NCBI GenBank assembly: GCA_022393335.1
Contig: JAJEKB010021085.1
Coordinates: forward strand, 44,956 to 108,955
DNA length: 64,000 bases
Reading direction: 5' to 3'
Origin: Macrotrachela quadricornifera
Taxonomy: Eukaryota > Rotifera > Eurotatoria > Philodinida > Philodinidae
The position numbers and the translations under genes were made by a program. This document shows positions 25,288 through 35,117 of the stretch, one piece after another (positions within the stretch are counted from its first letter, which is position 1; the number at the start of each line of letters is the position of its first letter). The notes beneath the pieces are model-generated. The model saw nothing but the letters and a program-made list of their open reading frames with translations, had not been told where the DNA came from and ran no database searches.

Positions 25288-25785
25288 AAACGTCCAACTC
25301 CTATTCACAGAAAATTCATTTTATCCGTTTTTGTTTCAAATACAATGAATTCTCTTCGTGGAAATTAGTATATTTATGATAGAGGTACAATCAACTCTAA
25401 GTAACTAGACCTGCAATATTATATATGACTAGAAATTTCGAACTTCAATAAAAAAAACAGGTTGATAATTCTCAGGAATGTTCCAGAAACAGAATTTACG
25501 TAATCATCTTCTTGAAGGAAAATAATTAGAACATGCTGATTTCTAAAGAGTACGGGCGAGTGAAAATCTTCCAGGACTTAATAATTGTGGAACGCTTCAA
25601 CACTTGAATTCGAGTTTCATTTATTTCACTACTGTGATTCTACAAGAAGCAGCCAATCGCAGTAGAACAGCAAATATGGTTGCGCTGCCTTGTGAGTAAG
25701 AGTAATTGTATATTTCTATTTAGAGGACCAGCAATAAATGGCATAGTGGAACATATTGCGTGTATCGAGCGATTCCAACGGTTAC

Positions 25786-27204
25786 ATGGAAGATGCTCCC
25801 CGGACAGTTGCTCCGCAGCAAAATTTGCCTATGAGGCCCAGATCAAGTCTCAATCAAGACCGATCCTCAACCTCTGGTTCGCTCTCATTCACATCATCAT
25901 CTCCATTGTCATCTGTGCCCTCAAACTTAGTCGGACATGCGCCTATACTCTCATCGTTCGGGGGACAAGTGCCGCTAGAGAGCACCTTTGATGTTTCCAG
26001 TTCCAACAATTGTCATCTTTGTCCTCACTGTCGCAAATGCACTGGATTTAAGAGGACAAATTCCTGTATTGGAGAGCCTTGCTTGTCACATATCAAGTAT
26101 TGCGAATGCAAGAACTCGCGTGATGACGAAACCGAAGAGAGAGCCGCCGAGCAAAGGGCCGCAGAACAGAGAGCTGCAGAGAAAAGGGCCACAGAACAGA
26201 GAGCCGCCGAGCAAAGGGCCACAGAAGAGAGAGCTGCAGAGAAAAGGGCCACAGAACAGAGAGCTGCAGAGAAGACGGCCGCAGAACAGAAAGCCGCCGA
26301 GCAAAGGGCCACAGAACAGAGAGCCGCAGAGAAAAGGGCTGCAAAAGATAGAAGGGCCGCAGAACAGAGAGCCGCCGAACAGAGAGCTGCAGAGAAAAGG
26401 GCTGCAGAACAGAGAGCCGCCGAGCAAAGAGCTGCAGAAGAGAGAAGGGCCGCAGAACAGAAAGCCGCCGAGCAAAGAGCCGCAGAGCAGAGAGCCGTAG
26501 AGCAGAGAGTCGCAGAAGAAGAAAGAGACGCAATTCAGAGAGTCAGGGAAGAGCGACGGATCGCAGCTATCAAAGCCATGGAAGAGCAAAGGGCCGCAGG
26601 TCAAAGAGCTGCAGAACAGAGAGTTGGAGAAGAACAAAGAGACACAATTCAGAGAGCCGCAGAAGAGAGAAGAGTCGCAGCTATCAAAGCCATGGATGAG
26701 CAAAGGACTGCAGGTCAAAGAGCAGCAGAACAGACAGTTAGAGAAGAGGAAAGTGACATAGTTCAGAGAACCGCAGAAGAGCACTGGGTCGCAACTGAAA
26801 CAGCTGAAGAACACGCTTTGAAATTAAATGAAGAAGGATTCAGATTATTCGAAGACGGAAAAATCTTAGAAGCAGCTTTTAAAATAGAAACAGCACTCGG
26901 AAAGTATGTGGAGGCAGTTAAAAAGTTTAAAGCCGCTGCTGCAAAGAAGATCCTGGATGTTATTCACAATTCATTCGTATTTGTGATAGATGCATTCATA
27001 AAAAACGGAGCGTATGACCAAGCGAAAAAGGCAATAGCATTCGCGACACTTCATTTTCCGCGTGCAACCAATGCTTTTAGAGAAGCAGCACGAATGATAG
27101 AGAGCAATGATTGGTCTCCTAATTATACAGAGCGAAATTTGATTGGATGTGAAGAAGTGAAAAAGAATACTACTGTGCAAGTAGCGAATAGAGTGAGGGA
27201 ATAG
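25786..27204 (+). CDS. Cys-rich protein with Ala/Glu/Arg pentapeptide-repeat helix
   Basis: Single-exon frame of 472 residues from ATG 25786 to the stop at 27204. An in-frame TAG lies at 25744-25746. Residues 1-75 are Ser/Pro-rich. A Cys cluster follows (CHLCPHCRKC, later CIGEPC and YCECKN) that could bind zinc. Then comes a long run of RAAEQ-type pentapeptides (see the repeat entry), highly charged and helix-forming; its period of five is unlike a heptad coiled coil and fits a single alpha-helix or rod. The last 130 residues (ALKLNEEGFRLFEDGKILEAA onward) look like TPR- or MIT-like helical hairpins. The base composition is visibly richer in G and C than the host genes around it. The family is unknown; a structural or adaptor role is a guess. 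A foreign or transposon-borne origin is possible from composition and setting. Confidence 0.7.
   Translation: MEDAPRTVAPQQNLPMRPRSSLNQDRSSTSGSLSFTSSSPLSSVPSNLVGHAPILSSFGGQVPLESTFDVSSSNNCHLCPHCRKCTGFKRTNSCIGEPCLSHIKYCECKNSRDDETEERAAEQRAAEQRAAEKRATEQRAAEQRATEERAAEKRATEQRAAEKTAAEQKAAEQRATEQRAAEKRAAKDRRAAEQRAAEQRAAEKRAAEQRAAEQRAAEERRAAEQKAAEQRAAEQRAVEQRVAEEERDAIQRVREERRIAAIKAMEEQRAAGQRAAEQRVGEEQRDTIQRAAEERRVAAIKAMDEQRTAGQRAAEQTVREEESDIVQRTAEEHWVATETAEEHALKLNEEGFRLFEDGKILEAAFKIETALGKYVEAVKKFKAAAAKKILDVIHNSFVFVIDAFIKNGAYDQAKKAIAFATLHFPRATNAFREAARMIESNDWSPNYTERNLIGCEEVKKNTTVQVANRVRE
26146..26520 (+). repeat. 15-bp minisatellite encoding RAAEQ-type pentapeptides
   Basis: About 25 imperfect tandem units of 15 bp (consensus near agagccgcagaacag), each coding Arg-Ala-Ala-Glu-Gln/Lys with Thr, Glu or Asp variants. 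Because the unit is a multiple of three and stop-free, other frames also stay open (170 codons in +2, and 242, 146 and 95 codons on the minus strand); these are shadows. A longer, more diverged repeat of about 110 bp (ending in IAAIKAMEEQRAAGQ and its copy) continues to about 26770. Confidence 0.9.
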
Positions 27205-28570: not shown

Positions 28571-29617
28571 ATTTACTTATTGTGTTTTTTTGTAACAATA
28601 TTAGCAGCAGACTTAGACAGAAGTCTACAACATCAGATTGATAATTATCAAGCAGAAAGAAGAATAGAGTTTTTTCAAGACGGAGATCGAGATAAAAGAG
28701 TCCCAAATGAATTCAAACACGGAAAGGACGATCCAAAAGCAATAGAGAAAGTAGAGGAGTTGGTAGGGACCTTAAAAGATGGTGGCAAAGCTGGATTACC
28801 TCATTTAGGATCACTAAGTGATGAAACCGGAAGACCCATCAAAGTTTTCGATGACAAGGGGCAAGTTATACGTATTATTGGTGAGAATAAAAGTGGTGAT
28901 CCAGTAGAAGTACAATATCATAAGCCAACTGTCGATAAACCTCAAGGTCATTGGACTTTGCCAGGTGGTAAAGAACCAGCGGTTAATAATAGTGGACCAA
29001 ACAACTGTTTATTTAATGTTATTGCGCAACAAACAGGAAAAGATCCCAACCAATTAAGAAAAGATACGGTTGTTAGAATGGAAAATAATAAGACGAACCT
29101 CGCTAATCAGGCTCATGATATTAAACGATTGGAGAAGTATAAGAAAGATGCATTAACAATGGGAGGAGTGGAAGAAAGAAAAGAATTAAATCCTTCTGAA
29201 CTTCGTTTTTCGCAAACTAGTATTGGCTGTACAACAAGAGATGGAACTCCCATTGAACAGTTAGCAGAAAATATAAAACAATATGGTTTTGATGGTAATC
29301 ATCGTATTCAAGTAGTGAGAATGCAAGACGGTAAATTTACTGCATTGGATAATCGACGGGTTGCAGCGAGTGATGCAGCTCAAGTGTTAATAATAGCAGA
29401 TATTTATAATTATGATGAGATACTACATCCAGATCTACAAAAGCAGTATAAGGCGAAAACGGCACAAGCCGCCGTTCGGAAAAGAATGAATAGCAAGGAT
29501 CGTGCAAGAAACGGATATCTACAAGACGAAGTTAGAGTAAGAGGTAAAAACGTTTTCGTATCCGATTTCGTAAAGAATACACGAGAGTCTTTTCAAGAGA
29601 AATCGAATCAATTATAG
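28571..29617 (+). CDS. OTU-like protease region plus ParB-like motif, polymorphic-toxin-like; start unresolved
   Basis: The frame is open for about 348 codons to TAG 29615-29617 and has no ATG near its 5' end. It follows a TAG at 28568-28570 that may be a splice acceptor. The first residues are a hydrophobic stretch ending AA, like a signal peptide. An ATG at 28555 would enter this frame if the 7-T run at 28585-28591 were one base shorter. Residues below count from TTG 28580. About 85-125: GRPIKVFDDKGQ, VEVQYH and GHW (His 124), resembling the C-terminal half of an OTU cysteine protease. About 139-155: GPNNCLFNVIAQQTG (Cys143), resembling the OTU catalytic-Cys motif. About 239-262: QVVRMQDGKFTALDNRRVAA, like the ParB-type nuclease module of bacterial polymorphic toxins. 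The His-bearing half precedes the Cys half, as in a circularly permuted domain. Composition is less AT-rich than host genes. Horizontal acquisition is inferred; activity and target are unknown. Confidence 0.65.
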   Translation: MYLLCFFVTILAADLDRSLQHQIDNYQAERRIEFFQDGDRDKRVPNEFKHGKDDPKAIEKVEELVGTLKDGGKAGLPHLGSLSDETGRPIKVFDDKGQVIRIIGENKSGDPVEVQYHKPTVDKPQGHWTLPGGKEPAVNNSGPNNCLFNVIAQQTGKDPNQLRKDTVVRMENNKTNLANQAHDIKRLEKYKKDALTMGGVEERKELNPSELRFSQTSIGCTTRDGTPIEQLAENIKQYGFDGNHRIQVVRMQDGKFTALDNRRVAASDAAQVLIIADIYNYDEILHPDLQKQYKAKTAQAAVRKRMNSKDRARNGYLQDEVRVRGKNVFVSDFVKNTRESFQEKSNQL

Positions 29618-30615
29618 TTACGAATAAAATCATTTCTTTCATATAGTTTTACTGTTAGAATTTAAGATTTATATCATTATTGTTAGGCGCGTTCGTATTT
29701 TTCTTTTCCGTTTGCGAGTCTTTCAATTTATTTAAATTAGTTATTCCTTGTTGCATATGATTGACAGAGCGAGAGAATATTATTATTGCCAATATCTTGT
29801 ATGGGTCAGTTTTTGGTCATCCAATTTAACCTGAAGCCCTCCAAAGTTATGGTTTTTGTGAGTCGATCCGAGGTTTTATTCAAGTTTTTTCTAATCGAAT
29901 CTATGTCAAACACTATATACTATTATGTCAAAAAATAGCAGAGGACAAAAAAATTAAAAAAACTGAAGAGAATCATTTGAGATAAATGTTTTTTGTGTTT
30001 CTACCAATAGTTAATTTTTATATTTTATTGTACATAGTATTTCCATGTTACTGTTGTGAACTATCTAAATATATGATTGTAAGATTTAAATATCTATGTA
30101 TGTGTTCATTTTCTCCAGTGTAAATCCGAAATCATAATGCCCATTATGTGTCTGACTTTTGTTAAAGTTTTGTAAGTTTTCTTGTAACCTTCTTTGCTTT
30201 TGCATTTTTGTATGAATATGGAGAGAAAAGGAAAATATCACTATTCATTTTTATCCTCTACGTATACGACGTGTTGTGCTTGCTACTTCCTCTCTGCTCT
30301 TCCGTACACATATCGTTAACGGTATCAAAAATTCCTCAAAATATGAAAGCAATTTGATGAAAATTGTAATTGCTGAATCGCTAAAATCAAAGAATTATGC
30401 AAACTATGCCTATTTAATAAATTACAGTTTGATAATAATTCAATAGCTAAACACTCTTATGAAATTTACGTATACATGTAAAATGTATTCGAAAGACAAA
30501 TCTTCACCAGTTTGTTTTAGAGAACTAATTAAATTATCTATTCAGTAAGATTAGCATCAAAATTTAAAACAACTATTAACTATCTCAATGATAGAAACAA
30601 AGTGAACTATTTATT

Positions 30616-32411: not shown

Positions 32412-35117
32412 TCATATAGGTAGTTGACTGAAGATATCTTTAGCAGTCTGTTTCTAGAAAATAGTATATACAATCATTTAAAAAATAATCTCCTCCAACT
32501 TCCAGAAAAATATATAAACATACAGTACTTCTCCCTAATAACGACGGAAAATTTTTGCTTCATTTTGTTTTCTTTCGCGTTCATCTATTTTAATACCGAT
32601 CCCAGACCATTATATATTTGGGGAATCTTTGGATGACGCTCTTTCGAATGGTATATATCCGATCCATATTCTTCAATGTTTTGATGAAGATATCACCGGT
32701 CTACGATCAACATGTCTTCCTGTCGTTATTAGGTGCTGGTACCATAATAGCGACGGCCAGCTAAATTTTCTCCCTAATAACGACGTTTAAGCAAAATTTA
32801 TGCTAATAATTATTTTGTTTTTAAAAAATGCGTTTTTCAAGCTTATTATTCAGGAAATGAGGCCAGGTTGTATTACAAATTTTAAAGATCATCTCAAACT
32901 CTATCTATATCTAGCGGTTCATAATGATTCAATAATATCATAAGGAAATCCTAGAACCATCAAAGATTATCACGACTCAATAGAAAAAAAAAGTATCCCT
33001 AATAACGACGTCCAGCAAAATTTTCTCTCTAATAACGACGCCAAGCTATTTTTTTTCCCTAATAACGACGATAAGGTGATTCTACATCACCACAATGAGT
33101 CTAGCTAATTTTTCTCCCTAATAACGACGTCCAGCTAAATTTTCTCCCTAATAACGNNNNNNNNNNNNNNNNNNNNNNNNNNNNNNNNNNNNNNNNNNNN
33201 NNNNNNNNNNNNNNNNNNNNNNNNNNNNNNNNNNNNNNNNNNNNNNNNNNNNNNNNNNNNNNNNNNNNNNNNNNNNNNNNNNNNNNNNNNNNNNNNNNNN
33301 NNNNNNNNNNNNNNNNNNNNNNNNNNNNNNNNNNNNNNNNNNNNNNNNNNNNNNNNNNNNNNNNNNNNNNNNNNNNNNNNNNNNNNNNNNNNNNNNNNNN
33401 NNNNNNNNNNNNNNNNNNNNNNNNNNNNNNNNNNNNNNNNNNNNNNNNNNNNNNNNNNNNNNNNNNNNNNNNNNNNNNNNNNNNNNNNNNNNNNNNNNNN
33501 NNNNNNNNNNNNNNNNNNNNNNNNNNNNNNNNNNNNNNNNNNNNNNNNNNNNNNNNNNNNNNNNNNNNNNNNNNNNNNNNNNNNNNNNNNNNNNNNNNNN
33601 NNNNNNNNNNNNNNNNNNNNNNNNNNNNNNNNNNNNNNNNNNNNNNNNNNNNNNNNNNNNNNNNNNNNNNNNNNNNNNNNNNNNNNNNNNNNNNNNNNNN
33701 NNNNNNNNNNNNNNNNNNNNNNNNNNNNNNNNNNNNNNNNNNNNNNNNNNNNNNNNNNNNNNNNNNNNNNNNNNNNNNNNNNNNNNNNNNNNNNNNNNNN
33801 NNNNNNNNNNNNNNNNNNNNNNNNNNNNNNNNNNNNNNNNNNNNNNNNNNNNNNNNNNNNNNNNNNNNNNNNNNNNNNNNNNNNNNNNNNNNNNNNNNNN
33901 NNNNNNNNNNNNNNNNNNNNNCGTTATTAGGGAGAAAATTTAGCTGGACGTCGTTATTAGGGAGAAAAATTAGCTAGACTCATTGTGGTGATGTAGAATC
34001 ACCTTATCGTCGTTATTAGGGAAAAAAAATAGCTTGGCGTCGTTATTAGAGAGAAAATTTTGCTGGACGTCGTTATTAGGGATACTTTTTTTTTCTATTG
34101 AGTCGTGATAATCTTTGATGGTTCTAGGATTTCCTTATGATATTATTGAATCATTATGAACCGCTAGATATAGATAGAGTTTGAGATGATCTTTAAAATT
34201 TGTAATACAACCTGGCCTCATTTCCTGAATAATAAGCTTGAAAAACGCATTTTTTAAAAACAAAATAATTATTAGCATAAATTTTGCTTAAACGTCGTTA
34301 TTAGGGAGAAAATTTAGCTGGCCGTCGCTATTATGGTACCAGCACCTAATAACGACAGGAAGACATGTTGATCGTAGACCGGTGATATCTTCATCAAAAC
34401 ATTGAAGAATATGGATCGGATATATACCATTCGAAAGAGCGTCATCCAAAGATTCCCCAAATATATAATGGTCTGGGATCGGTATTAAAATAGATGAACG
34501 CGAAAGAAAACAAAATGAAGCAAAAATTTTCCGTCGTTATTAGGGAGAAGTACTGTACTTGACATAAACGATCAATTAGTTGTTCGATGTTATCAAGGGT
34601 AGCATTAGGCGAATTTGGCGGCATACACATTTCAGCCAATTGTCGACCATCGTGCTCCTATAATTACATGTTAATGTATTAATATAAAAAGAATGAAAAC
34701 AAAGAACTCACATAATTTTGATATTTTAAAACGTACAATGTTGACTTTAATATATGAGCAGCATCATCTAACTTAATTTTTGCATTACTATGTAAGGTAA
34801 TCGAACATAGTGTTCGAATAGTATCCAATACGTGCTTATAAGTTTCTTTATCGACCTATGTGAAAAGTAATGCCAAATTATATTGAATAAGTTACAAAAT
34901 TAATAGCAAATTTTACGTTAAAAGACAAGATAGCCATGTCTGTTGTACTATGAATTCGAGCTCAGCTCGACCGATATTTATTCTCCTATTTAATCTTTTG
35001 ACCTCGATAACTTCCCTTTTCTTTCTTAATTTCTTTCTTTACAATCTCATTGGCTTTCCTTATTGAACAATAGAATAGAAAAAAAGACAATCATACCATT
35101 GTTTTATTGTCAGTCAT
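32412..35117 (-). CDS. Small helical protein of unknown function, interrupted by a transposon in intron 3
   Basis: Minus-strand exons 35117-35097, 34855-34712, 34657-34559 and 32453-32412 join in phase to 101 residues: MTDNKTM, then VDKETYKHVLDTIRTLCS..., EHDGRQLAEMCMPPNSP..., and KQTAKDIFSQLPI before TGA. The protein is mostly helical, with no signal peptide or membrane segment. I do not recognise it. A 5' UTR splice acceptor precedes the ATG. The third intron (34558-32454) is now 2105 nt because a TA-flanked transposon occupies it; without the element and one TA copy it would be 70 nt, the usual size here. The element entered the TA of the donor itself, so the site reads GTACAG instead of GTATGT. 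Whether splicing still works is unknown. Confidence 0.65.
32523..34555. mobile_element. Fold-back DNA transposon, Tc1/mariner-type ends, TA target duplication
   Basis: Left arm 32523-33156 and right arm 33922-34555 are each 634 bp and look identical in inverted orientation. Both tips read CAGTACTTCTCCC inward and are flanked by TA (32521-32522 and 34556-34557), as expected for a Tc1/mariner/pogo-superfamily insertion. The tip motif tccctaataacgacg recurs inside each arm at about 32529, 32770, 32997, 33057, 33113 and 33143, plus variants near 32747 and 33032. Such subterminal copies often bind transposase. No transposase frame exists in the visible arms, and the 765-nt gap is too small for a full one. 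A non-autonomous element is most likely. Near-identity of the arms suggests recent insertion, although assembly mirroring cannot be excluded. Confidence 0.8.
33157..33921. other. Assembly gap (765 N)
   Basis: Run of N exactly at the centre of the inverted repeat, where a palindrome would defeat assembly. The true length may differ from 765. Confidence 0.99.

Follow-up and report, generated by a model that had tools for sequence, protein, structure and literature searches.

A permuted OTU-type core with a ParB-like tip in a bdelloid rotifer, a probable cassette of polymorphic-toxin-like giant proteins

What is an open reading frame that joins a rearranged protease to a toxin-type module doing in the genome of an animal? 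The question is raised by a locus of the bdelloid rotifer Macrotrachela quadricornifera, in a stretch of 64,000 nucleotides of contig JAJEKB010021085.1 (positions 44,956 to 108,955, forward strand; hereafter the window). Polymorphic toxins are known as a bacterial weapon, and bdelloids as asexual, gene-acquiring animals. The frame, at 28571..29617 (+), comprises 348 codons plus a stop and, from frame reading and relatives, encodes a permuted OTU-type core followed by a ParB-type tip; its 5′ end is not established. The original prediction had read it as an OTU-like protease with permuted halves fused to a ParB-like module, and the motifs quoted there all lie inside the frame. The reading favoured here, with moderate confidence, takes the frame for the C-terminal cassette of a giant protein of polymorphic-toxin-like build that the bdelloid genome encodes; in such a protein the permuted OTU would free the tip.

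The frame is not a product of chance, because a search with its protein (P0001) returns nine relatives (best E-value, E, 2.2e-100), and because the ratio of nonsynonymous to synonymous substitution rates (dN/dS) between its core and three paralogue cores of the same genome is 0.14-0.19. Six of the nine come from Rotaria or Didymodactylos and one from the wasp Diachasma; an alignment-based second search raises the number to 17, the additions including the wasps Bracon, Diachasmimorpha, Fopius and Chelonus, which are braconids. The window core has a dN/dS of 0.19 with the paralogue C1056 and 0.18 with C4528, while the paralogue C4511 has 0.16 and 0.14 with the same two; much of this history of low dN/dS may predate the loss of the giant part. 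Sequence searches of Pfam, NCBIfam and the PDB with P0001 gave nothing useful, and phage records gave no match. Pattern scans of the genome contigs (seven matches for the core, ten for the ParB tip) and, for the core, of viral contigs (12 matches) yielded no confirmed relative, the patterns being narrow and the test weak.

The core occupies residues 58-199 (28742..29167, +; 142 profile columns) and has, by sequence and model, the topology of a circularly permuted OTU-type cysteine protease. In the AlphaFold model, the strands RPI-V, E-Y and GHWT come first and are followed by the helix opening with NNCLFNVI, and the OTU fold extends across both halves, as in permuted OTUs of the EschOTU type; the predicted local distance difference test score (pLDDT) is mostly 82-95 over residues 51-190. 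His127 (28949..28951, +), the predicted general base, is a His in 119/119 aligned cores and is always followed by an aromatic residue (W, Y or F), while Cys146 (29006..29008, +), the predicted nucleophile at the start of helix 146-155, is a Cys in 118 of the 119. These are the residues earlier numbered His124 and Cys143 from a TTG at 28580. The Cys-then-His order of canonical OTU proteases (clan CA) is thus reversed, and the aligned cores keep this reversal. The order of the halves was therefore read correctly in the original prediction; its novelty was not, since excerpts of published work already describe EschOTU of Escherichia albertii (PDB 6W9S) as a circularly permuted OTU deubiquitinase (PMC7396840) and a survey names LupA as another permuted relative (PMC10318531).

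The profile search that had been proposed against OTU families assigned none to P0001 (Pfam OTU, PF02338); the relative P0006 matches positions 50-119 of that profile with E 0.0018, below the cut-off. Foldseek alone did not find the OTU fold for the core at E≤0.001, and the fold was found on a second look. Two residues after the His, where D, N or E would be expected, the window has Thr129, and among 120 rows this position is T in 79 and E in 6; mutants of this position are described, in the excerpts, as losing activity completely, to an intermediate degree or not at all (PMC7396840). The window core is 13% identical to EschOTU, which has Asn at this position, and differs from it in preceding variable tips across a Gly-Gly joint. 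As a separate observation, the lepidopteran proteins P0057, P0060, P0072 and P0073 contain, in the tip region, a second OTU-like copy after the first, which seems to have lost its Cys and His in the manner of a pseudo-enzyme.

That joint, Gly198-Gly199 (29162..29167, +), separates core from tip and is the proposed cleavage site. Gly-Gly occurs within -6 to +8 residues of the predicted core end in 106 of 120 cores. For the 43 cores that do not align to the end of the model, it lies within -10 to +60 of the alignment end in 37, against a background of 17% for 70-residue stretches drawn at random from these proteins; the remaining cores have it in 77/77, a biased count since the profile was built to end there. 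In nine pairs hand-picked for alike cores and unlike tips, identity falls from 64-88% over the last 25 residues before the joint to 12-28% over the first 25 after it. An OTU-type protease beside a mostly fixed Gly-Gly suggests, by analogy with ubiquitin processing, that the core may cut in cis.

The tip itself (residues 200-348; 29168..29614, +) is a ParB-like domain of the Tox-ParBL1 type, which bears out the module recognized earlier. Ser214 of the FSQ motif (29210..29212, +) and the DNRR motif (29348..29359, +) are invariant in five aligned tips, and the model resembles ParB, Noc and sulfiredoxin folds, with no Foldseek match at E≤0.001. The ParB fold, the conserved Ser and the [NT]RR-type motif are shared with Tox-ParBL1, for which metazoan cases have been reported in the excerpts of PMC3482391. 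Fusion to a permuted OTU core sets the present tip, which probably acts on nucleic acid, apart.

The cassette is best understood from its relatives of much greater length. In the analysed genome (450 Mb, 5695 contigs), the core lies in single open frames of 3540 codons (C4511) and 3556 codons (C4528), and C1056 is a near-copy of C4528 cut by a contig end. The cores of the last two are 97.7% identical in bases and the same NHL-like neighbour stands on both contigs, likely marking homologous copies of one locus. A scan of 3167 of the 3540 residues of the C4511 protein finds a RickCE-like domain, a SecA P-loop and SecA_DEAD (E 6e-37). When its own genome is searched with C4528 from TPR to tip, 12 places match: C1056, the window and ten frames, which are 2002 to 6317 codons long; within this set, SecA motifs were checked in C4511, C4528 and C4501. 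In two further giants, C3047 and C4449 (L035, L036), the Cys seems lost by eye and the protein ends in a hydrophobic tail; these are possibly tamed, membrane-anchored versions.

Outside this genome, a search with the SecA-to-helical region of C4511 gives 491 proteins at E≤1e-5, from the 7989 candidates sharing most words, and features were taken from the 120 matches listed. Their named sources include rotifers, Lepidoptera, a bee, a wasp, mosquitoes, sandflies, flukes, an ostracod, a nematode and Hydra, and, outside animals, Heterostelium and the bacteria Amoebophilus, Cardinium, Megaera and a Rickettsia metagenome-assembled genome (MAG). The core profile matches 98 of these best 120 of 491 (independent E≤1e-3); the median distance of the match to the C-terminus is 223 residues, and in 88/98 the distance does not exceed 350; the Amoebophilus and Cardinium giants are among the proteins containing it, and 22 of the 120 have no match at this threshold, including those of Hydra, the ostracod and Microctonus. 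In a quick tree of the SecA part (39 hand-picked named proteins plus three from this genome), two mosquitoes and Phlebotomus group with Amoebophilus and Cardinium, and the Rickettsia MAG, whose 14.8 kb contig is perhaps misbinned, stands beside rotifer proteins. These groupings suggest several transfers between intracellular bacteria and animals, with no direction implied. Some wasp proteins (P0010, P0013-P0016) are short, at 260-509 residues, and consist of the core and a GHPRGHAS-type tip without SecA.

What follows the joint varies widely. The 119 tips of at least 30 residues form 36 clusters, an overcount, as several singletons are cut or shorter than 90 residues, P0020 is C4511 over again and the same gene stands behind more than one of the rows in some cases; clustering was by single linkage, so that chaining is possible, above all in the largest cluster of 48/119 GHPRGHAS-type tips, whose sole member scanned alone has no Pfam family. 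Known toxin domains are found among the tips: three of ten representatives pass the Pfam cut-off (Endonuclea_NS_2 in Adineta, a ribonuclease, and AHH in a mosquito), alongside the ParB tips, while the labels ADP-ribosyltransferase-like (ART) and HNH-like rest on motifs read by eye without a Pfam call. The tip of C4501 resembles RHS and haemagglutinin-type proteins. The other giants of the genome also end differently: C4372 has an HNH-like tip, C4238 and C4466 share another, and others are unlike any.

A constant part with interchangeable C-terminal tips, as in polymorphic toxins, is also seen on a tree of the constant region, which counts 21 tip changes against a mean of 21.7 for shuffled labels (52/200 shuffles as low). 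The ParB and HNH labels, with five rows each, change five times each, the same as when shuffled; some clustering is seen for GHPR and ART (22/500 and 12/500 shuffles reach counts as low). This tree is of the quick kind, with long-branch warnings and two unlabelled rows with very short tips, and holds 63/121 core proteins, 52 scoring below 100 having been excluded and six more by hand (five short or partial, one duplicate). The window core has its sister in a giant of Adineta vaga (76% identity over 199 columns; support of 98 in the Shimodaira–Hasegawa-like approximate likelihood ratio test, SH-aLRT), and the tips of the two differ. P0078 and P0080 share 92.7% identity over 3141 residues and show no relationship past the joint, and P0025, with a ParB tip, is 83.9% identical over 3362 residues to P0026, with another. 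Sequence comparison thus indicates that tips are exchanged at the joint between otherwise alike proteins.

From N- to C-terminus, the full-length relatives consist of helical repeats, a SecA-like ATPase (preceded in some members by a RickCE- or Ulp1-like protease segment of the CE clan), a hydrophobic helical region, the permuted OTU-type core, the Gly-Gly joint and one of many unrelated tips. Once such a protein is expressed, the core would act in cis and cleave behind the Gly-Gly, much as deubiquitinases do at the Gly-Gly that ends ubiquitin, and so release the tip, here a ParB-fold domain, as a presumed toxin against its target. The layout recalls bacterial polymorphic toxins as presented in the excerpts of Zhang et al. 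2012 (PMC3482391), with their constant region, interchangeable C-terminal tips, protease directly before the tip and some tip kinds in common. Unlike those, the present family is animal-encoded, carries a SecA-like ATPase in its constant part and combines a permuted OTU with Gly-Gly, and no immunity gene or secretion route is established for it. SecA in very large proteins of intracellular bacteria is also a feature of the Amoebophilus and Cardinium giants and of the phage WO SecA genes; the excerpts of that source describe no permuted OTU with a Gly-Gly joint (PMC5062602).

These comparisons limit two earlier claims. The fusion is present as predicted, although its two parts had each been described in 2012, the OTU domain from polymorphic toxins and Tox-ParBL1 also from metazoa, as excerpts of PMC3482391 indicate. 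The idea of an acquired effector reused by the animal keeps its polymorphic-toxin connection and its animal genome, while the single effector gives way to one tip cassette of a large family of SecA giants. What is new is an animal-encoded family that shares the layout of polymorphic toxins and has its permuted OTU next to a joint that is Gly-Gly in most members; titles and abstract openings in one literature collection include no description of such giants in rotifers, and none pairs a polymorphic toxin with a bdelloid.

Two observations temper the cassette reading. By eye, the joint reads AG in C4501 and C4631 of the same genome, and of seven further frames read at their ends only C971 matches the core profile clearly (E 1e-6), C4466 doing so marginally (E 0.004) and others showing a His...Cys pattern by eye only. 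Confidence was slightly lowered because of these AG joints and weak profile matches in the genome's own distant giants. The core might instead be a deubiquitinase effector acting in trans on the ubiquitin of a target cell, with Gly-Gly a mere hinge. EschOTU, the nearest fold, is a proven deubiquitinase in the excerpts of PMC7396840, and the RickCE-like domain of C4511, together with PF22179 or PF02902 in 21 of the 120 listed giants (hand count of precomputed domains), points to ubiquitin or SUMO; the core nevertheless stands directly before unrelated tips, the place of the processing protease in polymorphic toxins, at a joint that is mostly Gly-Gly, and action in trans is considered unlikely. 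More improbable still is that the giants are ordinary host proteins and the tip a DNA-binding or sulfiredoxin-like regulator, as nuclease tips alternate at the same joint and the C4501 tip is RHS- and haemagglutinin-like, even though sulfiredoxin and Noc are among the fold matches.

Other doubts concern the window copy. It could well be, though this is not the expected outcome, a dead 5′-truncated fragment that a duplication or transposition left behind and that itself does nothing: it has no in-frame start and no upstream giant parts in the window, repeats lie nearby, and its dN/dS with C1056 and C4528 slightly exceeds that of C4511 with the same two. Yet 348 codons are intact, His and Cys are conserved and dN/dS is well below 1; P0006 and P0012 start near the same point, although they lie on contigs shorter than 1.6 kb and may themselves be cut, and the wasps Bracon, Diachasmimorpha, Fopius and Chelonus have versions of 422-509 residues. 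Bacterial contamination or symbiont sequence is very improbable despite the giants of Amoebophilus, Cardinium, Megaera and the Rickettsia MAG, for other frames of the window encode glutamine synthetase, NYN plus zinc-finger, Sushi and MFS domains. In addition, three paralogues sit on contigs of 0.35-1.9 Mb, one of them close to a frame that reads as retroelement-like, and Rotaria, Adineta and Didymodactylos supply the closest of the named proteins.

The upstream parts of the giants, sought across the window, were not found, and the SecA ATPase present in paralogue C4511 is not found upstream in the window protein. The copy is either a standalone or spliced cassette or a 5′-truncated one with an intact coding part. 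A TTG start, as once proposed, is unsupported: TAG immediately precedes 28571 and the earliest in-frame Met is residue 170. Residues 1-57 (28571..28741, +) comprise the frame edge and then, from alignment and AlphaFold, a conserved helical lead-in (DLDRSLQHQIDNYQAERRIEF); pLDDT is low before residue ~38. The first ten residues do not align to relatives, similarity to the giants begins at about LAADLDRS, and the extra stretch, IYLLCFFVTI only, may be intron or other non-coding sequence. Since homology extends nearly as far as the edge of the frame, the signal-peptide reading of this N-terminus was abandoned, and no signal for secretion or delivery is established for the frame.

A neighbouring frame at 25756..27204 (+), 1.4 kb upstream, combines AAEQR-type repeats with a conserved domain at its C-terminus (26812-27201) that looks TPR-like by eye. 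Its family recurs upstream of C4511 (~11 kb, 41% identity) and C4528 (~6 kb, opposite strand, 48%), and is thus present at 3/3 close-clade loci (window; L015 7007-7702; L016 4842-6656), with long AAEQR/AAEKK-type repeats in two of the three and not in L015. It was not found in the stretches read near 4/4 distant giants (C4501, C4238, C4631, C4372). A partner or antidote is a possible role. Downstream, AATAAA at 29623..29628 (+) is a possible, weak polyadenylation signal, such motifs occurring 2.5 times per kb in the window. A perfect inverted repeat at 32521-34557 has arms of 1018 nt placed 1 nt apart and includes a run of N; it is a palindrome or else an artefact of the assembly.

Polymorphic toxins would gain a new setting in an animal genome that contains ten related giant frames, members of a family in which the tip hardly follows the remainder of the protein. 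It is a tentative thought that bdelloids keep a working arsenal of giant, SecA-driven polymorphic toxins that cleave themselves at a ubiquitin-like Gly-Gly, their tips being swapped with orphan cassettes, the window copy among them, as donors. The Gly-Gly joint beside a permuted OTU offers one simple, testable rule for tip release; if it holds, ubiquitin-type cleavage would extend to self-processing toxins, and the finding bears on the use that bdelloids make of bacterial genes.
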